From Selenomonadaceae bacterium (lineage in GTDB: Bacteria; Bacillota; Negativicutes; Selenomonadales; Selenomonadaceae): a DNA stretch of 64,000 bases. Each line of letters opens with the position of its first letter. The stretch's first letter is position 1. The translations under genes and the position numbers were made by a program. The stretch covers positions 1 to 64,000 of the forward strand of contig JAFUTY010000004.1 of assembly GCA_017484005.1 (NCBI GenBank), read 5' to 3'. Below are positions 2,790 through 32,278 of the stretch, piece by piece. The notes under the pieces are model-generated. The model was not told the DNA's origin. It saw only the letters and a list, made by a program, of their open reading frames with translations, and did not search any database.

Positions 2790-5588
2790 TTACAGCCTCG
2801 CCACAATTCTTTCCATTCTCATGCCTCTAGATCCCTTCACCAAAATTGTATCGCCGACATCGAGAACGCTTTTCAAAATTTCGAGAGCCTCTTCGTGAGA
2901 TTTTGTTGTCGCGACGAATGGAACTCCAGCTCCCCGCGCGCCTTCAGCGATGTAATCTGCCAATTCTCCGCAGGTTATCACGATCTCGAAATCATTTGCA
3001 CCAAGACACTCGCCGATTTGCCGATGAGCATTCGGAGCGATTTTCCCGAGCTCGAGCATATCTCCCAAAACTGCAACTTTTCGACTCCGCGAAATTTCTG
3101 CAGTTGTCTCGATAGCCGCCCGCATTGATAGAGGGCTCGCGTTATAAGTATCATTGATAATTCGGAATCCATGCCGCTCGATAATTTCAAGACGCATTTT
3201 TGTCGGTGAGAGATTTTGCAAGCCTTCAGCTATTCGTTCTGCCGAGATATTCAGCGCAAATCCAACAGCAATCGCAGCTAGAGCGTCATAAACGTTGTGA
3301 ATCCCGACCATTGGAATTGAAAATTCGCGCGAAAAATTTCCAGATTCAACTTCGAAAGTCGTTCTATGATTTTGAATCAAGACGTTTGAGCCTTGAATAT
3401 CTGCCTTTTTATTGATTCCAAACGTCAAAATTCGAACTTTGGGATTTGCCAATCCTTTCATCGCAGCAACTCGATGATCGTCAGCGTTGAGAATGGCAGT
3501 CCCTCCGGGCGGAATCGATTGAACCAATTCAGATTTTGCGCGCGCGATATTGTCAATCGATCCCAAGAGTTCGATGTGAGTCTCGCCAACATTTGTAACA
3601 ACGCCGATAGTCGGTTCAGCTATCGATGCAAGTGTTGCGATTTGTCCTAAGCCTCGCATTCCCATTTCGACAACTGCCGCCGCATGATTTTCGTTGATCC
3701 CGAACAAAGTCAATGGCAGACCGATTTCATTGTTGAAATTTTCGGCAGTTTTTTGAATTTTTCCAAGCGATGAAATGACTGCTGCCGTGAGATCTTTGGT
3801 TGTAGTTTTTCCATTCGAACCGGTTATCGCGATGACAGGAATATCGAATCGCTCCCGATGAAATCTAGCGAGCCATTGATACGCCTCGAGAGTGTTGGGA
3901 ACTTTGAAAATTTTTCCTTGAGATGGAATTTTTTCAGCTGGACAAGTTTCTGAAACTATGACTCCCGCCGCACCTTTTTCAATTGCATCGATCGCAAAAT
4001 CCTCGCCATTAAATTTTTCACCTTTGAGTGCGACGAATAGACAATCAGGCTCAATCTTTCGCGAATCAGTTACAATTTCGGAAAAATCTCGCGACGCTAA
4101 ACATATAATCGCCTCTCGAGCGGTCTCTCGATCGTCAAAATGAATCGTTCGATCGTTTAAAATCTGATAAGTCTCATGCCCTTTGCCGAGAATTACGACG
4201 ATATCGTCTTCTTCGGCGATGTTTATAGCATGGAAAATCGCTTCCCGTCTTGAGATAATACATTCGTGAGTTTTGTTCTCGATCTTTTCCAAAACTCCGG
4301 CTTCAACTTCATCGAGAATTTTTTGGGGATCTTCCGATCGTGGATTGTCTGAAGTCACGATAACGACATCTGATAATTCAGCCGCCAATCTTCCCATGAT
4401 CGGACGTTTTGTTCGATCTCGATCTCCGCCGCAGCCGAAAACTGTCAAAATTCTTTTCCGAGCGATTTGACGGGCAGTTCTCAAAACATTTGTAACGCCG
4501 TCGGGAGTGTGTGCATAATCAACAATCACCGAGAAATTCTGCCCAACATCGACGCGCTCAAATCTTCCAGGGACGCTCGTGAATTTTTCCAGAGATTTTT
4601 TGACAATCCACGGATCGATGTGTTCAGCCAGAGCAGCAGATGCAGCCGCCATCGCGTTATAAATGTTAAAAATTCCAGTGATTTTTAAATTCAATTCGAG
4701 ATCGAGATGTTTGCTAGTGAATCTGAATCGAGAGCCGATTGAAGTCACATTGATCTCGCTCGCAATAAAATCAGATTCATGCTCAATCGAATAAGTGAAT
4801 TTTTGACAATTTGCATGCTCGAGCATAAATTCGCCTGATGGATCATCTATATTAATGATAGCATTTTTCTCGATTTTGACTCCCTTTCGAGAAACCAAAT
4901 CAAAGAGTTTAGATTTTGCGAGCCGATAATTCTCAATTGTCTTGTGATAATCCAAATGATCCTGCGTGAGATTCGTGAAAATCGCTGTATCGAATTCAAT
5001 TCCCGCAACGCGATTTTGATCCAGCGCATGCGACGAAACTTCCATAATCACATAATCCATATTTTTTTCGCGCATCAGATCTAGAATTTTTTGAAGATCC
5101 GCGACGTCTGGAGTTGTATTGTGAACTGGAAAAATCTCCTCCTCAATCATGATTTGAATCGTGCCAATCAAGCCGACTCGAAATCCTGCAGATCGAAGAA
5201 TCGCTCGAAGTAAATAGCTCGTTGTAGTTTTTCCATTCGTTCCAGTGATTCCAATGATTCGCATGTCTCGCGCCGGATATGAATAATAGAACGGCACAAT
5301 CGCCTCGAGAGCTGGATGAAGATCTGGAACGACAATCGCCGCCATTCCTTCTGGAAGATCGACTTCACCTTTTTCTGGATCGCGAGTTGTAAGAATTGCA
5401 GTTGCACCAGATTTTGCAGCCTGCGCGATGAAATCATGCCCGTCGACATGCGCTCCAGGAATGCAGACAAATAGCGTTCCAAAACGAACATTGCGCGAAT
5501 CGCGTTCAATATCAGTGATAATCGCGTGCCGATCTCCAATAACGCGCGCGCCTGCAACTCTGCTTGCTATATCGCCGACGGTTTTCAT
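2790..5588 (-). CDS. murE-murF: MurE-MurF fusion: tripeptide ligase plus D-Ala-D-Ala adding enzyme
   Basis: One 932-residue reading frame holds two complete Mur ligases. The MurE half (about residues 1-480) has the ATP loop GITGTNGKTTTS, DYAHTPDG and TSDNPRSEDP; DNPR marks enzymes that add meso-diaminopimelate rather than lysine. The MurF half (about 485-932) has a second ATP loop AITGSNGKTTTKD, GMRGLGQIA and NDTYNASPLSM, and adds D-Ala-D-Ala. The two are normally separate neighbouring genes; here no stop, start or frameshift lies between them. The ATG at 5588 follows a GGGGGGA ribosome site. Fused MurE-MurF proteins are known in a few other bacteria such as Bordetella. Confidence 0.93.
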   Translation of the reverse strand: MKTVGDIASRVAGARVIGDRHAIITDIERDSRNVRFGTLFVCIPGAHVDGHDFIAQAAKSGATAILTTRDPEKGEVDLPEGMAAIVVPDLHPALEAIVPFYYSYPARDMRIIGITGTNGKTTTSYLLRAILRSAGFRVGLIGTIQIMIEEEIFPVHNTTPDVADLQKILDLMREKNMDYVIMEVSSHALDQNRVAGIEFDTAIFTNLTQDHLDYHKTIENYRLAKSKLFDLVSRKGVKIEKNAIINIDDPSGEFMLEHANCQKFTYSIEHESDFIASEINVTSIGSRFRFTSKHLDLELNLKITGIFNIYNAMAAASAALAEHIDPWIVKKSLEKFTSVPGRFERVDVGQNFSVIVDYAHTPDGVTNVLRTARQIARKRILTVFGCGGDRDRTKRPIMGRLAAELSDVVIVTSDNPRSEDPQKILDEVEAGVLEKIENKTHECIISRREAIFHAINIAEEDDIVVILGKGHETYQILNDRTIHFDDRETAREAIICLASRDFSEIVTDSRKIEPDCLFVALKGEKFNGEDFAIDAIEKGAAGVIVSETCPAEKIPSQGKIFKVPNTLEAYQWLARFHRERFDIPVIAITGSNGKTTTKDLTAAVISSLGKIQKTAENFNNEIGLPLTLFGINENHAAAVVEMGMRGLGQIATLASIAEPTIGVVTNVGETHIELLGSIDNIARAKSELVQSIPPGGTAILNADDHRVAAMKGLANPKVRILTFGINKKADIQGSNVLIQNHRTTFEVESGNFSREFSIPMVGIHNVYDALAAIAVGFALNISAERIAEGLQNLSPTKMRLEIIERHGFRIINDTYNASPLSMRAAIETTAEISRSRKVAVLGDMLELGKIAPNAHRQIGECLGANDFEIVITCGELADYIAEGARGAGVPFVATTKSHEEALEILKSVLDVGDTILVKGSRGMRMERIVARL

Positions 5589-25018: not shown

Positions 25019-25300
25019 TTAGAGAATCGCGAGGATATCACTTTCGCGAATGATCAAATAATCTTCGCCGTCAACTTTGACTTCCGTTCCGGAATATTTG
25101 GAAAAGAGAATTTTATCTCCGGCTTTGACTTCCATCTGTGCGCGCGTTCCATTATCAAGAAGTTTGCCATTTCCAACCGCAATGACTTCACCTTTTTGAG
25201 GTTTTTCTTTTGCGGTGTCGGGGATATAGAGTCCGCCGGCAGTTTTTTCATCGCTCTCGGCGACTTTGATAACGACGCGTTCGCCCAATGGTTTCATCAT
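25019..25300 (-). CDS. groES: co-chaperonin GroES
   Basis: A 93-residue Hsp10 that caps the GroEL ring. [12 protein letters not shown] at the start, [16 protein letters not shown] (mobile loop) and the C-terminal [14 protein letters not shown] are typical. ATG 25300 follows an AGGAGG site at good distance; the open frame extends further upstream, but that part is not family-like. Confidence 0.96.
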
Positions 25301-25363
25301 ACGAATCTGCCTCCTAAGTTTCAGAGAATTTTTCATGCGATTTATCTTTCGCAAGCGAGGGAT

Positions 25364-25391
25364 ATTCTAAAATTTTTAGACAAAAAGTCAA
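25364..25391 (-). promoter_or_regulatory. sigma-70-type promoter of groES-groEL
   Basis: On the minus strand TTGACT and TAGAAT are separated by 16 bases, 64 bases upstream of the groES start. The -35 box nearly touches the end of yitT. No CIRCE inverted repeat (TTAGCACTC-N9-GAGTGCTAA), the usual HrcA operator, is visible between promoter and start. Confidence 0.7.
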
Positions 25392-25405
25392 GGAAAATTT
25401 TTCAA

Positions 25406-26242
25406 TCAATGCTTTCCGTAAGAGAATCCTAAACCTCTAACTTCATTGACTTCCGAGATTGTAAAGAATGCATGGGGATCGACTTCCGAAATCATTTTGC
25501 AAACGTTAAAAAGTTTTCTGCGTGGAATGATACACATGATCCCTCGATCTTTTTTAGATGTGAATCCGCGTTCGATTTGAAACATCGTTGCGCCGGCATC
25601 TTCGAGCAAAATCCTCTCGCGAATGATTTCGATTTCGTCTGAGATTATAAAAATTTGAATCTGAGTTTTGCCGAGGAGCATGATTTTATTCATCGTGAGA
25701 GTTATCAATGCTAAAACGAATATGCCGAGGAAAATCTGTTCGGAATTTGAAAATGGAATTTGCAGGCTCAAAATAATTCCGTCAATGATGTAGAGAATTA
25801 TCGACAGATTGAAATGCAGATGTTTATCGAGAATCAGCGCGAGGATATCTGTTCCGCCCGATGATCCGCCGGTTCTGAGGATCAATCCAACTCCCGCGCC
25901 CATCAATACTCCTCCAAAAATCGCGGCGAGCATGATGTTCGATGTGAGAGTATCAGTTAAAAATCTTTCCAATATAAACATGCAGGCAGGATAGAGAATC
26001 GAGTTTGCGATTGTCGATATTGCAAAATTTTTTCCGAGCGTCATGAATCCAATCAGAAATAGAATTCCATTCACGATCAAAATCATTGTTGAAAGCTGCA
26101 TCGGTATGTAATGAGCTGCGGCGAGTGATATTCCAGTTGCTCCGCCGAGAATCATTCCATGCGGTGCGATGAATCCAATGACTGCCAAGGCGATCAAAAA
26201 ATTACTGAAGATCATTATCGAGATCTTTCTGATAAGTTTCAT
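25406..26242 (-). CDS. YitT-family membrane protein (DUF161/DUF2179)
   Basis: A 278-residue protein with five or six hydrophobic segments (about residues 8-170), the loop TGGSSGGTDILALIL typical of the family, and a soluble C-terminal DUF2179 domain (GATMFQIERGFTSKKDRGIMCIIPRR). The family is widespread in Firmicutes; its transport role is not settled. It stands upstream of groES on the same strand but has its own end before the groES promoter. Confidence 0.88.
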   Translation of the reverse strand: MKLIRKISIMIFSNFLIALAVIGFIAPHGMILGGATGISLAAAHYIPMQLSTMILIVNGILFLIGFMTLGKNFAISTIANSILYPACMFILERFLTDTLTSNIMLAAIFGGVLMGAGVGLILRTGGSSGGTDILALILDKHLHFNLSIILYIIDGIILSLQIPFSNSEQIFLGIFVLALITLTMNKIMLLGKTQIQIFIISDEIEIIRERILLEDAGATMFQIERGFTSKKDRGIMCIIPRRKLFNVCKMISEVDPHAFFTISEVNEVRGLGFSYGKH

Positions 26243-26309
26243 GTTTTTCTCCTATGTAATTTGCTAAAATCAACTAAATCCAAAATTTCAATATAAAGGA
26301 GTGAAATCC

Positions 26310-26384
26310 ATGGCTCGAAAGTATGAGCAGCTCGCCGCGGATATTGTTAAAAATGTCGGCGGAAAGGAAAGCGGTATTTCATGA
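26310..26384 (+). pseudogene. 5' stub of a beta-glucoside-type PTS EIIBCA gene
   Basis: After an AAAGGAG site, ATG 26310 begins MARKYEQLAADIVKNVGGKE, the N-terminus of PTS EIIB of the beta-glucoside/sucrose type. Homology ends there, and the frame closes four codons later at a TGA that overlaps the ATG of the endonuclease. The stub may now serve only as a leader coupling translation to the endonuclease. Confidence 0.8.
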
Positions 26385-27226
26385 TTATTTACGTCATTAT
26401 AAATACAATCAACGGAAAAATTTACATTGGACAGACGACGCGATCTCTTAGTGAAAGAATTTCGGAACATATCAGTAACAAGAAGACTCTCATTGGACGA
26501 GCAATTCAGAAATACGGCTGGACAAATTTTAGCGTCAAAGTTATCGAAGTGTGCGATACCATTGAGCAGCTTAACGAACGCGAAAAATTTTGGATTGCGA
26601 AATATGATTCCATTGTACCGAACGGCTACAACTTGACTGAAGGCGGCAATAATGGAACTCATTCAGCCGATGTGTGCGCCAGATTATCTGCAGCGAATAC
26701 AGGTAAAAAACTTTCAGCAGAGACTTGTAAAAAGATTTCCGAAGCGAAAAAAGGAACTCATCTATCTAAAGAGACTCGTGCAAAAATGTCTGCAATGCGC
26801 AAAGGAAAATCAAAAAGTAATGAGACACGAGCAAGAATGAAATTGGCGCAGACAAAAAATCGAAAAGTGGTTTACTGCATTGAAACGAGACAAACTTTTG
26901 AATCGATTAAGGCTGCAGCTGAAAGTTATGGAATACGAAGCGGCGAAATCAGTTCTGTATGCAACGGCAAAAGAAATACTGCCGGCGGCTTACATTGGGC
27001 TTTTTTGAAAGATTGGTTGACTGCAGACGACAAAACACAAACTGAATTATCGGCAAAACCTTCGCATCGCAGAAAACGCGTTCGCTGCATGGAAACTGGC
27101 GAGGTTTTTCTGTCAACTCGTGCGGCTGCAGAAAAATATAAAACCGATCATAAAAATATTGCCCGTGCTTGCAAAAATTCAACAAGAACCGCAGTAGGAA
27201 TGCATTGGAAATTTCTTGTCGACTGA
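26381..27226 (+). CDS. GIY-YIG homing-type endonuclease with NUMOD DNA-binding motifs
   Basis: A 281-residue mobile endonuclease. Residues 2-90 are a GIY-YIG nuclease domain (IIYVIINTINGKIYIGQTT, the arginine in SLSERISEH, the glutamate-rich EQLNEREKFWIAKY). Residues about 95-155 hold repeated NUMOD3-like motifs (SAETCKKISEAKKG, SKETRAKMSAMRKG, SNETRARMKLAQ). Two NUMOD1/IENR1-like helix-turn-helix units follow (about 165-220 and 232-280: FESIKAAAESYGI and FLSTRAAAEKYKT). Such enzymes cut a target allele and spread by repair. It lies exactly between the two ends of a PTS gene. Confidence 0.9.
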   Translation: MIIYVIINTINGKIYIGQTTRSLSERISEHISNKKTLIGRAIQKYGWTNFSVKVIEVCDTIEQLNEREKFWIAKYDSIVPNGYNLTEGGNNGTHSADVCARLSAANTGKKLSAETCKKISEAKKGTHLSKETRAKMSAMRKGKSKSNETRARMKLAQTKNRKVVYCIETRQTFESIKAAAESYGIRSGEISSVCNGKRNTAGGLHWAFLKDWLTADDKTQTELSAKPSHRRKRVRCMETGEVFLSTRAAAEKYKTDHKNIARACKNSTRTAVGMHWKFLVD

Positions 27227-28031
27227 ACCTGCAATTTACGGTGTAACTCTCCCTCGAAAGAAATATTTTATCATTTCATGTATCGGCGCGGCTATCGGCG
27301 GAGCATTGATGGCTCTGCTCGATGTCAAACTCTACATCTTTGGAGGCTTGGGAATCTTTTGCTATCCTGGATTTATTGATCCTGTCGCGAATGATGTCAG
27401 TGGAATGTACAACTCGATCATTGTTTCATTGATTGCGATGGCTGTTGGATTTGGTATAACTTTCCCAATTTATAAAGATGAAGTTGTCGAAGCTCCAGCT
27501 GCTCCAGTGTCTGAACCTGCACCAGCTCCGCAGCCTGAACCAAAATCTGAACCTGTTGCGACTTCAGAATCCTCTTTGAAATCCGAGATTCTCGCAAGTC
27601 CTCTCACTGGAAAATTAGTCGCGATTCCAGATGTTCCAGATCCAGTTTTTTCGTCGGGAGCATTGGGACAGGGAATCGCTGTTGATCCTTCCGAGGGAAA
27701 AGTTTTTGCACCAGCTGATGCGGAAGTCTCAACTCTATTTCCAACTGGACATGCAATTGGATTGATAACTTCAAACGGCGCAGAAATCTTGATTCACATC
27801 GGCATGGATACTGTTGAAATGAATGGCGATGGATTCAAAACTCACGTCAATCAAGGTGACAAAGTCAAAAAAGGAGATCTGTTAATCGAATTCGATATCG
27901 ATAAAATCAAAGCGGCAGGACATCCAGTTATTACTCCGGTCGTTGTGACGAATCATGCGAATTTCAAAAAAGTCTCGCCGGCATCTCAATCAGTTTCAAG
28001 TGGCGATGATCTGATTTCGATCGAAGTCTAA
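27216..28031 (+). pseudogene. 3' remnant of the PTS EIIBCA gene: end of EIIC plus EIIA
   Basis: Homology resumes at TEPAIYGVTLPRKKYF, within the conserved GITEP signature of PTS EIIC, and overlaps the endonuclease stop. Then come the last EIIC helices, an Ala-Pro-Glu linker (about residues 90-115) and a complete EIIA domain with the phospho-histidine in EILIHIGMDTV. Most of EIIB and about 300-400 residues of EIIC are gone compared with normal EIIBCA, so sugar transport by this gene is lost. The EIIA part could still be a phosphate carrier if it is translated, but no clear ribosome site precedes it. Confidence 0.85.
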
Positions 28032-28046
28032 TTTAGGAAAATTTTT

Positions 28047-28085
28047 CATGGATAGAGTTTAGAATTCTATCCATGATTTTTTTCG
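28047..28085 (+). terminator. terminator after the PTS remnant
   Basis: A 10-bp perfect stem CATGGATAGA with TCTATCCATG, 9-base loop, then a T-run. It is the original 3' end of the PTS gene. Confidence 0.88.
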
Positions 28086-28236
28086 GAGTTATCAATCAAA
28101 ACAAAAAAGGCGATCGAATACATTCTTTTCTATTCGAAAACCAGAAACTCGATCAAATTTCGCGGTTTGCAGAAAAATAGTAAAAGTGGCTAGGAACTAA
28201 AATCTTGATTCGAAACTCGAGCATTCTCTCCATCAT

Positions 28237-28911
28237 ATGAAAAAACTGATTATGATCCGGAAGTGCCATGGAATTTCATCGATAAATCTTTCTGTGTTAA
28301 AACGAATGAGCAAGCAACATCTGAATTGCGACAGATTTTCGATTGAGAAAAATTTTTTGATTTTCCAAAGCCGCCATCATTGATTTCGTAATCTGATAAA
28401 TTTTCTTTGAGATTCAGATTCAATAATTCTCGATGCATTTGCAGGATCTGGAACGACTGGTCAATCAGTTATCGAATTGAATCGAGAGGATTCTGGATCT
28501 CGAAAATTCATTTTGATCGAATCCATGGATTATTGTGAATCGATAACTGCTGAACGAGTTCGTCGAGTTGGTGGAGAATTTTCATTCTATGAATTCGGAG
28601 ATCCAATTTTTATCGAGGATCAATTGAATCCAGAAATATCGAGAGATCTATTTCGAAGATATCTTTTCTATTCGGAAACAAAAAAAGAGATCCCACCGAT
28701 GAATCCCGATGAATCAACATTACTCGGAATTCATGATGGGATCGCTTATCATTTAATCGATGGAGATCTCAATTTCAATTCTCTCGCACAGATCAAAACT
28801 CGATCAGAAAGCTACATTATGTATGCGGAATCATGTACGATATCTCAAGAGACTCGCGATCAATTCAAGATCATTTTTAGAAAAATTCCTCGAGATATTC
28901 GAAGAATCTAA
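28237..28911 (+). pseudogene. decayed C-terminal part of a DNA adenine methyltransferase (Mod-like)
   Basis: The last 144 codons (from 28477) are open, but the coding match begins earlier. In the same frame ILDAFAGSGTTGQSVIELNR carries S-adenosylmethionine motif I, and a different frame before it reads EKFFDFPKPPSLIS, the segment that normally precedes motif I in Mod enzymes. Stops and at least one frameshift lie between these parts, and motif IV with the recognition region is missing. It is therefore a remnant of a second type III-like methyltransferase. It sits next to GmrSD-like genes, as expected in a defence island. Confidence 0.75.
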
Positions 28912-28916
28912 TAAAA

Positions 28917-28958
28917 AGATCCCCGACAGATCACTTTCGATCTATCGGGGATCTTTTT
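28917..28958. terminator. bidirectional terminator between the Mod remnant and the GmrSD-like genes
   Basis: A 16-bp stem AGATCCCCGACAGATC with GATCTATCGGGGATCT, 6-base loop, with an A-run on the left and a T-run on the right. It separates two convergent units and is nearly identical to the terminator at 303-347. Confidence 0.9.
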
Positions 28959-28966
28959 TGTTCGGA

Positions 28967-30578
28967 TCAATATTCAGAATCCCATTTTTTGAAGAGATCG
29001 AGAATTTGATTGATCATTTCATCGCTACGATTTGAAATTGCATTTGCATCCCAAGAATCAAGCGATCCAATTTTCTTCGTCATTGAAATAGAAGATGTTT
29101 GATACCATCCAGTTTTATCATTGAACGATTTGTTTTTCGCGCTGATATTCAAAGATTTTTCAAGCGGCGTGAGATTTCCAATCGCGTTGATAATTGCAGG
29201 ATCTTTTGGCGCGTAATTCTGTTGAAAATTCTGCGGCAGAATATGCTCAATCTCCCATGCCAATGGAAGTTTCGACGGCAAAATAGTTTTTTGATCCGGA
29301 TCGCTGTACGCAATGATTCGCAAAATCGTTCGAGTGATTAATCCATTTTGTCGAATCGCATTATCAACATCTTGATCGGTAAAATCATTCGCTGGAAAAT
29401 TTGGATGATCCGATTTTATCGATTGAATGTTGAGCTCGAGCACCGGAAATCGAATCGAAAGCGCAGTTCCAGTGACCGCATGGATTCGTGTGAGTGTCGC
29501 GATTAATTTATGCAGGAATTTCAAATATTTCGGCTCGAAATCGATTTCACCAGAATGCACGATGTAATAAACAATCGCTGCGGATCTCCAATGATCACTC
29601 GGCGAATTCCAGATGATATCGAGTGCCTGCTGAAGCTCCAAACACCAATTGCTCGAATTTGGATCTTTCATTTTTTGAATGATCTCAGAAATTTTTTCCA
29701 GATCACTCATCGTCACCGGATATCCAAGATAATTTTTGAGGAATTGTCGCATACTTCCGCGCAGATTTAATTTTCCACTCTTCGCCCGAGTGTATGAATG
29801 ATAATACGTGAAGAGCGTCATCATCGATTCGACATCTTCGATGATTCTGCCAGCGATTTATGAATTCTTTCCGAGTCGAATCGTCAAGTTTCGAATAGAT
29901 ATCTGCCTTGAAAATATCTGTATCGCTGAGCTGCAAACCGCGATCATTAATTCTTTCGAAAAGCTCGAGCGTCGATTGAAAATCATTTGCCTGAATTACT
30001 AAAATGTGTGTGGAATTCAAAAGATCGTTGACGAATTTCAAAAATGCATTTTGATTTTTCACGAATCCGCGCAATTGATTTTGGAATAATCGATAATTCG
30101 CAGAATAATTATCGTCACCATTTCCAGCTTTATTTGAGAGGATATCGATGAATTTTTGATTTGCCAAATCACTTGTCGCTTCAGACGAGATCCGAACTTT
30201 ATCCGGCGCAATGATATCTCCCATCAAATTCATTTCCCAAATTATTCCGCGAAGATTCATTTCTAACGGCGAATTTGACTGTAAATGTTCATGAATCGCG
30301 TGAAACAGTAAAAATAATGTCACGATTCGTTGTTGCCCACCGACAATCTCGCGTCTTTGATTTTGATTCGTGTAAAAAACGATCGAGCCGAGAAAATATG
30401 TATCGCTGGGATTCGAATTCGCGCTGAAATCCTTGAGATCTTCGAAGAGCTCCAATGCTTGATCTTTGCCCCAAGAATATGGGCGTTGATATTCCGGAAT
30501 CAGAAATGGTTTTTGAGTGGAATTGAAAAAATTGAAAATCGGCACATCTGCAACTGCTTTAATGCTTGGCAAATTCAA
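28967..30578 (-). pseudogene. GmrSD-like DUF262/DUF1524 protein, copy 1, frameshifted
   Basis: Two frames together give one DUF262-DUF1524 protein, the family of the type IV restriction enzyme GmrSD, which attacks modified phage DNA. The first frame (30578 to about 29850) has FLIPEYQRPYSWG and the NTP-site motif as GGQQR instead of the usual DGQQR, then FERINDRGLQLSDTDIFKA. After INRWQ the frame shifts. The second frame (to 28967) has DVESMMTLF and the DUF1524 nuclease motif IEHILPQ with its histidine. It starts 8 bases after the stop of copy 2, on a TTG with a weak site (AAGGGG). Probably inactive as a single protein. Confidence 0.8.
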
Positions 30579-30586
30579 TCAGCCCC

Positions 30587-32185
30587 TTAATATTCCGAAT
30601 CCCACTTATCCAATATCGCGAGAATTTGATCAACAATCTCCTCATTGCGACTTTGAATCTCGTCAAAACTCCACGAACTTTTTTCAATGAGATTTCTCGT
30701 GACAATTATACCAGATTTTTGATAGCAACTCTTTTTCTCTTCGAAAGATTTATTTTTTGTCTGTGCAAATTCTTTTTCGAGCGGTGTAAAATTCCCAATC
30801 GTTTCAACCAGATCTTTATCGTCGGGATTGTAAGAATTTTTTCTCGGCAGAATCAATTCTAATACACAATTCATAGGCAACAATTCATCCTGATTTGCAT
30901 ATACGAAGATGCTCATCCACATTTTTTGTATCGGTTTTGATTTCGATTGAATCGATTTTGAGATTTCCATTCGAGAAAAATTTTCCGTTGAAAAGCTCGG
31001 ATGAGTATAATGCATTGACTCAAAATTGATATCGATCATGAGTTTTCTGACTGTGGTAGCACTTTTAATCGAATAAGTTTTGGCGAAAGATGAAATCAAT
31101 TTATGAAGGAAACGAGTGAAATTCGATTCGAAATCTTCCTCGTCTTGAGGCGCGAGATAATAAACTGAAACTGCATAGTCCCACCATTCACTCGAAATTC
31201 TTCTGACAATATCGAGTGCCTTGCGAATCTCGATGTTTTGAGACCAAGATTCGCCATCGATCGTATTTTGAGTTTTAATCATGCGAATCAGTTTAAAAAT
31301 TTTTTCGAGATAATTCATCGACGTTGGATATTGAAGTGCATCGAAATTTCTATCGAGAAAATAATTTCGCACGCCATCATTATGAAATATCGCTTGTCGA
31401 TTATCTCTGGCGCGAGCAAAATACATGTAATGATTGAACAGCGTAATCATTGGCTCGTTGATGATATTCATTTTTCGTTCGAGAAGTTTCCAGCGTGCAA
31501 TAAATTCTCGACGCGATATTTCATCGAGTCTCGTATAAATTTTCGATTTGAAAATATCTGAATCGGTTAATTGTCTTCCGCGATCGTTGATTCGTTCAAA
31601 GAGGATAAGAGTCGAATTGAAATCGTCAGCTTTGATTGGTAAAATTGTCGTTAACTCAAGGAGTTTCTTTCGAAAAATCATAATATCGTCGAGATTCGAT
31701 AGCAGTTTTTGAAATTCGCGATAATTTCTTGAATAAAGCTCTGAGCCATCTGCTTTTCCTGTTGCGAGGATGTTGATGAAAGTCTGATTCGCTTCATCAC
31801 TTATCGCTTGCGACGAAATCAGAACTGAATCTGGAGAGATTACATCGCCAGTATTATCATCGAATTTCCAAATTAGTCTTTTCAAATCAGATTTCCAATT
31901 TGTATTTTTCAAAAGCTCATACATCGCTCGAATCAAAAGGAATAGCGAGATAATCCGTTGTTGCCCATCGACGATTTCGCGCTGATGAGTTGTATTTTCA
32001 AAATACATGATCGTTTCGAGAAAATATACCTCTCCCTCGAATTCATGAATATCGTTGAAGAGCGTCACGATTTCTTCAGTCTCCCATTCATATGGACGCT
32101 GATATTCCGGAATCAGAAAGGGTTTGTTGAGCTCACAAAAAAATTCACCAATGGTTTTGGGATCGGATGCGGCAATTCTCTTCAT
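30587..32185 (-). CDS. GmrSD-like DUF262/DUF1524 protein, copy 2
   Basis: A 532-residue intact reading frame, paralogue of copy 1. It has FLIPEYQRPYEWE, the canonical DGQQR at residues 73-77, FERINDRGRQLTDSDIFKS and a shared ending DKWDSEY. In the DUF1524 nuclease domain the motif reads LELILPRKNS where copy 1 has IEHILPQ: the catalytic-type histidine is replaced by leucine. NTP binding may persist while DNA cleavage is probably lost. ATG 32185 follows GAGGAG at 8 bases. Confidence 0.85.
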   Translation of the reverse strand: MKRIAASDPKTIGEFFCELNKPFLIPEYQRPYEWETEEIVTLFNDIHEFEGEVYFLETIMYFENTTHQREIVDGQQRIISLFLLIRAMYELLKNTNWKSDLKRLIWKFDDNTGDVISPDSVLISSQAISDEANQTFINILATGKADGSELYSRNYREFQKLLSNLDDIMIFRKKLLELTTILPIKADDFNSTLILFERINDRGRQLTDSDIFKSKIYTRLDEISRREFIARWKLLERKMNIINEPMITLFNHYMYFARARDNRQAIFHNDGVRNYFLDRNFDALQYPTSMNYLEKIFKLIRMIKTQNTIDGESWSQNIEIRKALDIVRRISSEWWDYAVSVYYLAPQDEEDFESNFTRFLHKLISSFAKTYSIKSATTVRKLMIDINFESMHYTHPSFSTENFSRMEISKSIQSKSKPIQKMWMSIFVYANQDELLPMNCVLELILPRKNSYNPDDKDLVETIGNFTPLEKEFAQTKNKSFEEKKSCYQKSGIIVTRNLIEKSSWSFDEIQSRNEEIVDQILAILDKWDSEY

Positions 32186-32278
32186 GTTTTTATCTCCTCG
32201 ATGTAAACTCAAAATTCAACATTACTATAGACGATCTAATTACACCGATCAAGACAAAATATTTTTCCGAATAAAAAA

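Follow-up and report, generated by a model that had tools for sequence, protein, structure and literature searches.

A putative free-standing GIY-YIG homing endonuclease where a beta-glucoside PTS gene lacks its centre, in a rumen Selenomonadaceae genus

How does a homing endonuclease gene come to stand where the centre of a sugar transporter gene is expected? The question is raised by positions 26310-28031 of a stretch of 64,000 nucleotides of contig JAFUTY010000004.1 from a Selenomonadaceae bacterium (GCA_017484005.1), referred to here as the window. Most known free-standing homing endonucleases come from phages, in which their genes are placed between intact ones. An earlier note on this DNA had recognised that a GIY-YIG homing endonuclease takes the place of the middle of a PTS gene, and the profile matches, the catalytic residues and the two PTS stumps described below bear this out. 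The picture that has emerged from the comparison with congeners suggests that sugar-uptake genes have been invaded repeatedly and that the broken gene was then trimmed around the invader. In what follows the G, L and C numbers are labels for compared genomes, loci and contigs, G000 being the genome of the window itself. The features of the locus are as follows.

26310-26384, plus strand: remnant of a PTS EIIBCA gene, comprising the start and 24 codons of EIIB, its terminal TGA overlapping the start of the endonuclease; by alignment the counterpart of codons 1-24 in intact orthologues
26378-26384, plus strand: left junction TTCATGA, PTS homology continuing to a few bases from the endonuclease ATG; the promoter/antisense leader usual in the family is absent
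26381-27226, plus strand: putative free-standing GIY-YIG homing endonuclease of 281 aa, identified by profiles and catalytic residues
27216-27226, plus strand: right junction, with the endonuclease stop codon inside the resumed PTS homology (ACTGAACC)
27216-28031, plus strand: remnant of the same PTS gene, comprising the EIIC end from TEPAIYG and a complete EIIA (PF00358, ORF residues 126-249); the ORF is open, with its stop at 28029-28031

Anatomy of the locus and of the endonuclease

Direct base-by-base reading places the ATG of the beta-glucoside PTS EIIBCA stump at 26310, from where it reads MARKYEQLAADIVKNVGGKESGIS up to a TGA at 26382-26384. The EIIB start had been correctly recognised in the earlier note; its length is 24 codons instead of the 20 given there. 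This N-terminus is too short for a profile match and was identified by alignment, sharing 71-95% identity with the start of intact orthologues in congeners. The endonuclease ATG at 26381 overlaps the TGA of the stump as ATGA, and the 281 codons of the endonuclease end in its own TGA at 27224-27226. PTS homology resumes at ACTGAACC (27222) as TEPAIYGV and is already running at the endonuclease stop (ACTGAACCTGC...), which agrees with the overlap at both edges reported earlier.

The tail ORF is open from the TTG at 27216 to the stop at 28031 and holds the last ~265 codons of the gene, the EIIC end and EIIA. The family profile TIGR01995 (PTS-II-ABC-beta) matches this tail only at profile positions 365-617 of 618 (E 4e-77), and the EIIA domain is recovered in the profile search with E 1.3e-52; the PTS sequence is indeed clear from TEPAIYG onward, as first noted. 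With 260 bits against a family cut-off of 614.7, the locus does not encode a complete PTS EIIBCA. Intact orthologues in the same genus have 644-647 aa, and hence about 350 codons are missing from the focal gene; the view that this is no clean insertion and that most of the permease has gone is thereby upheld. Judged by the segments that are left, the remnant cannot transport. It is possible that the EIIA function is kept in the tail, and other EIIA-bearing genes are present in the same genome.

The endonuclease, which is single-copy in this genome, has a GIY-YIG domain at residues 2-84 (E 5.9e-13), NUMOD3 motifs from ~108 (E 2e-6) and two C-terminal NUMOD1/HmuI-like repeats at ~163-210 and ~231-280 (HmuI-type NUMOD, E 1.2e-7). 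The protein has the separate DNA-binding modules characteristic of the Seg-type class, and in its G076 homologue NUMOD1 is matched. The catalytic residues of that class, Y4, Y15, R26, H30, Y45, E68 and N84, are all present and aligned with those of I-TevI (85 positions, E 5e-4). As in the Seg-type class, the gene lies in neither an intron nor an intein; it is found inside a destroyed gene and not between intact ones. Position between intact genes is a habit of the phage Seg-type members and is not required for homing. By its sequence and context we file the insert as a free-standing (intronless) GIY-YIG homing endonuclease, a putative nuclease. Endonucleases of this family are under constraint, with dN/dS values of 0.12-0.28. 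No close relative outside the genus was found at E<=1e-40 among 189 genomes of the family (and order) from 30 genera.

Two further observations concern the surroundings. The sequence 3' of the PTS tail (window 28025-28300) has further copies in this genome, on contigs C28, C69 and C9 (87-96% identity), and forms a dispersed non-coding repeat. On the minus strand at 28967-32212 two or three adjacent DUF262/GmrSD-like frames are read from the sequence, possibly a defence region beside the locus.

Two PTS genes with the endonuclease in congeners

The comparison set consists of 66 genomes of this rumen Selenomonadaceae genus, including G000, all of them metagenome assemblies as far as their titles show. 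Intact EIIBCA orthologues of ~645 aa are encoded in many congeners, often after licT and before a HAD gene and a 6-phospho-beta-glucosidase-like gene. The comparison with relatives' alleles that had been proposed in the earlier note has, besides these intact alleles, identified three further genomes in which the same PTS gene is broken by the same endonuclease clade, one of them carrying a relic; an allele with only the endonuclease added and both PTS flanks complete is not found among the 12 disrupted PTS loci of the two genes described here. In G062 (L064) the PTS gene runs to about codon 97, is followed by the endonuclease and resumes from ~412. In G076 (L106) the order is licT, then the endonuclease joined in frame to an apparent Shine-Dalgarno and start codon of the PTS gene, and PTS sequence from ~337. 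In G055 (L107) PTS sequence to codon 68 is followed by the last 21 endonuclease codons and by PTS sequence from ~374. The endonucleases closest to the focal one are those of G076 (58%) and G062 (58% overall, up to 74% locally), which like the relic of G055 lie in the same PTS gene. An in-frame TAG and an internal deletion have damaged the G062 copy, and the four carriers form a series of decay from intact (G000, G076) through broken (G062) to relic (G055).

The right edges of the four loci fall at about codons 337, 374, 379 and 412, and the insertion site in this gene is only bounded, between codons ~97 and 337. The PTS sequence abuts the endonuclease stop in G000, in G055 (+1) and in G062 (<=3), although the PTS edge differs; even the sister carriers G062 and G055 differ in their right edges, both of which lie at the endonuclease stop codon. 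The tails have kept an open frame and are constrained, with a dN/dS of 0.126 between G062 and G055 as compared with 0.03-0.18 for intact pairs.

A second gene so affected is a trehalose-type EIIBCA gene (TIGR01992, 646 bits), which is intact in seven genomes, including that of the window (contig C35), and disrupted by an endonuclease in eight. The endonucleases concerned form a second clade, antisense to the gene and of fixed orientation. In G077, G056 and G069 codons 1-228 of the gene run directly up to the endonuclease stop (0 bases) and EIIA follows from ~524 behind the endonuclease leader. G065 and G052 retain shorter remnants with frameshifts or stops. In G047 and G024 the N-terminal part is lost and the gene resumes at ~codon 239, and in G041 at ~codon 253. 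Different flanks are thus lost in different genomes, and the flanks combined place the insertion site at EIIC codons ~228-239 (native ...FTVD/MIGYQAQVLP/AILAAL...). The disrupted loci lie on L126-L128, L312-L314, L319-L322 and L121. The homologous position in the beta-glucoside gene falls within the segment missing from all four carriers.

The trehalose insertion site lies ~160 codons upstream of the GITEP motif. The earlier note had proposed that the right edge of the focal insert marks GITEP as the chosen target; since the trehalose site lies elsewhere and the right edges of the beta-glucoside loci differ, that proposal falls, and the GITEP edge is taken as the end of the loss.

Large losses with no endonuclease in place are also encountered, in the PTS gene and licT of G005, in the HAD gene of G003 and G059 and in the PTS gene of G042, and large clean internal gene deletions seem to be common in this genus. 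In G042 (L109 ~2900-4100) a glycoside-hydrolase-like frame is followed immediately by the beta-glucoside PTS gene from ~codon 351, a rearrangement of another kind at this gene. The HAD gene after the PTS gene lacks its centre, with nothing in its place, on L058 5486-5694 (G003, residues ~33-233) and L108 ~1750-2083 (G059).

Endonuclease genes of the family also occupy other sites in the genus. One lies just upstream of the beta-glucoside PTS start (L056 3150-3930; L107, minus strand, ~2870-3490; L108, minus strand, ~4030-4460), and the upstream porin-like gene is truncated in two of the genomes; G055 has both this upstream endonuclease and the relic inside the PTS gene. Recurrent intergenic sites are found between ilvN and ilvC and between two glutaredoxin genes, in six or seven genomes each (L140, L142, L144, L148, L153, L160, L169; L149, L157, L164, L168, L178, L181). 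A GIY-YIG endonuclease fused in frame to an apparent GH36 alpha-galactosidase has been identified in G002 and G010 (L055 1-2010, minus strand, and G010:C44), where the open frame of 1013 aa runs through a lost stop and the Shine-Dalgarno of the next gene.

Entry, trimming and the rival readings

The three long endonuclease copies from the beta-glucoside gene are monophyletic (SH-aLRT 99) in a tree of 65 relatives, and this tree sorts by insertion site, with 14 label changes against a mean of 31.8 in shuffles (0/200 shuffles as low). The maximum-likelihood tree of the shared PTS tail is different. G062 and G055 group together (98/94), G076 is placed elsewhere and G000 lies with the intact genes of G008 and G018. 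A single clade of the four carriers' tails is rejected by AU tests (p-AU 0.004 with all rows, 0.013 without the distant rows), as is a clade of G000 and G076 alone (p 0.009). A single ancestral disruption inherited by all carriers is thereby ruled out; at least two changes are forced on the tree, three being most likely. As the carriers' tails are not one clade, the trees point to repeated entry of the endonuclease into the beta-glucoside gene. The same endonuclease is found in the same gene in hosts with discordant gene trees, as expected of the Seg-type class, and site-specific spread would be the simplest reading of this discordance.

Most of the relatives at other sites have a conserved leader, present in 25 of 34 upstream regions as compared with 0.16 expected from shuffles. 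It is seen on L053, L099, L102, L056 (3150-3330), L107, L108 and at the majority of the genus's other endonuclease loci. Its predicted layout of ~110 nt comprises a forward promoter TTGAC-N17-TAnnAT, ~60 bases and a reverse promoter pointing back, whose predicted transcript is a ~65-nt hairpin ending in a T-run. Single-sequence folds were made of stretches around the stem that were picked by eye; for nine out of ten examples the fold is 4 to 6.5 SD better than that of shuffles, the stem sequences being different. RNAalifold gave no consensus structure on the MAFFT alignment of the leaders because the stems are out of register in it, and no Rfam match to the leader was found. By these predictions the leader looks like an antisense-RNA control of the homing endonuclease. 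The three PTS-embedded copies (G000, G062, G076) are without the conserved leader, which they have lost to different extents; in G062 just the final bases of a leader-like stretch remain (GCGAGGTAAGCTATG). We infer that the focal lineage arrived with the leader and lost it together with the PTS sequence.

The explanation we prefer, with a probability of roughly 0.6, is that site-specific free-standing homing endonucleases invade EIIC and that the dead gene is trimmed afterwards. A member of an endonuclease clade specialised on the EIIC region of a single beta-glucoside PTS gene of the genus would have invaded an intact EIIBCA gene, with loss of that gene's function; the enzyme would presumably cut uninterrupted alleles in the centre of EIIC, and recombination with the donor would copy the endonuclease in. 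Flanking DNA of the dead gene would then have been lost by deletions ending at the edges of the endonuclease frame, one of which probably took the promoter and antisense-RNA leader of the family. The endonuclease would be left as a cistron behind a 24-codon PTS leader peptide and before the open EIIC-end/EIIA frame, presumably expressed from PTS signals. The earlier note had left two alternatives, imprecise repair that removed the middle and an endonuclease lying in the gene with a deletion following; the latter is favoured because the trehalose loci combine a common insertion site with one-sided losses, and imprecise repair is the less favoured. The trehalose loci are the strongest evidence for insertion first and trimming later.

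Random later trimming does not readily give gene sequence that abuts the endonuclease stop within 0-3 bases while the PTS edges differ, and for this reason a replacement in one step is retained as the main rival, a possibility that we regard as doubtful. A break in EIIC would be resected on both sides and the endonuclease cassette joined in, insertion and loss being one event; in a variant, the repair would be by recombination with a donor allele already without the centre. In either form the ends of the cassette would be fixed and those of the gene variable. The missing clean-insertion allele, the repeated abutment on the stop (0 bases in the trehalose group) and the differing right edges of the sisters G062 and G055 agree with it. 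Against it stand the variable left ends of the cassette, the leader having been lost unequally in G000, G062 and G076, as well as one-sided losses around a common trehalose site and large internal deletions elsewhere in the genus. A more elaborate proposal, which we consider rather unlikely, is that a self-contained cassette for homing has been amplified in the genus, with a GIY-YIG gene behind convergent promoters that would give the hairpin antisense RNA over its own leader. It would spread in bacterial chromosomes by replacing the centres of PTS genes instead of by clean insertion. The endonuclease stop would be the constant end of the cassette, the donor would be immune since the target segment is gone, and the focal copy would have shed the antisense control and be read from PTS start signals.

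Partial domestication, by which the PTS operon would retain the endonuclease for its usefulness, with expression from PTS signals and EIIA preserved, is improbable. The ATGA coupling in G000, the in-frame fusion in G076 and the purifying selection on endonuclease and tail would suit it; the damaged G062 gene and the 21-codon remnant of G055 are what the decay cycle of a selfish gene would leave, and several trehalose-PTS remnants have stops or frameshifts. An assembly artefact, a chimeric contig of two pieces joined at an endonuclease repeat, is highly unlikely even in a multi-contig assembly, since the endonuclease is single-copy in the genome. Further, the same arrangement recurs with different edges in three other genomes, and the other PTS matches of the genome are separate genes and not the missing centre of the focal gene. 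Least credible of all is an endonuclease belonging to a group I intron or intein with the PTS gene functional after splicing. It has in its favour that TIGR01453, which matches the insert with E 7.5e-32, bears the name 'group I intron endonuclease'. Rfam gave no intron in 25200-29200 at E<=1 and no other known RNA at the locus, and PTS coding sequence adjoins the endonuclease at either end, leaving no space for a ribozyme. The stop after 24 codons and the change of frame leave no intein in frame with both exteins and with splicing motifs, and ~350 codons of the gene are missing.

Significance and known systems

In the present case a bacterial genus carries many genes for putative free-standing homing endonucleases, which have repeatedly destroyed two sugar-transport genes. 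The stages can be seen as an intact gene, an endonuclease with one flank, an endonuclease with both stumps, a decayed endonuclease and a 21-codon relic, and with them the cycle of invasion, decay and loss, and insertion followed by deletion versus replacement in one step, can be put to the test in a bacterial chromosome. Stumps of this kind elsewhere may be mistaken for transporters that are truncated or wrongly assembled. What is unusual is the setting: the gene is destroyed and its centre missing, and this recurs in two different transporter genes of one bacterial genus. The literature searched gave no papers on homing endonucleases in PTS genes or on antisense-controlled homing endonucleases.

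The flanks of the focal gene are the start and end of a transporter of the PTS-II-ABC-beta family (TIGR01995), from which it differs in the loss of nearly all of EIIB and most of EIIC. The insert shares the catalytic domain and residues of I-TevI and the group I intron GIY-YIG enzymes (TIGR01453; PDB 1LN0, 1MK0); unlike these it has no intron, its host gene is not restored by splicing and its DNA-binding part consists of NUMOD3 and two NUMOD1/HmuI-like repeats. The best phage relative by score is the SegB-like endonuclease of Staphylococcus phage PH15 (DQ834250), 38% identical over residues 1-209, which adjoins a large-terminase annotation and whose match stops short of the last NUMOD repeat. 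The Seg endonucleases of T4 (SegA-G) are free-standing GIY-YIG enzymes of 'intronless homing' that lie between conserved genes and cut at a distance, several of them being promoter-less (PMC2988022). The focal endonuclease resembles them in the combination of GIY-YIG and DNA-binding modules, with no intron, in or beside target genes, and several of the free-standing T4 genes are, as the focal copy appears to be, promoter-less cassettes read with the upstream transcript. It differs from them in that the focal copy, a putative endonuclease, lies in a destroyed bacterial chromosomal gene whose centre is gone.
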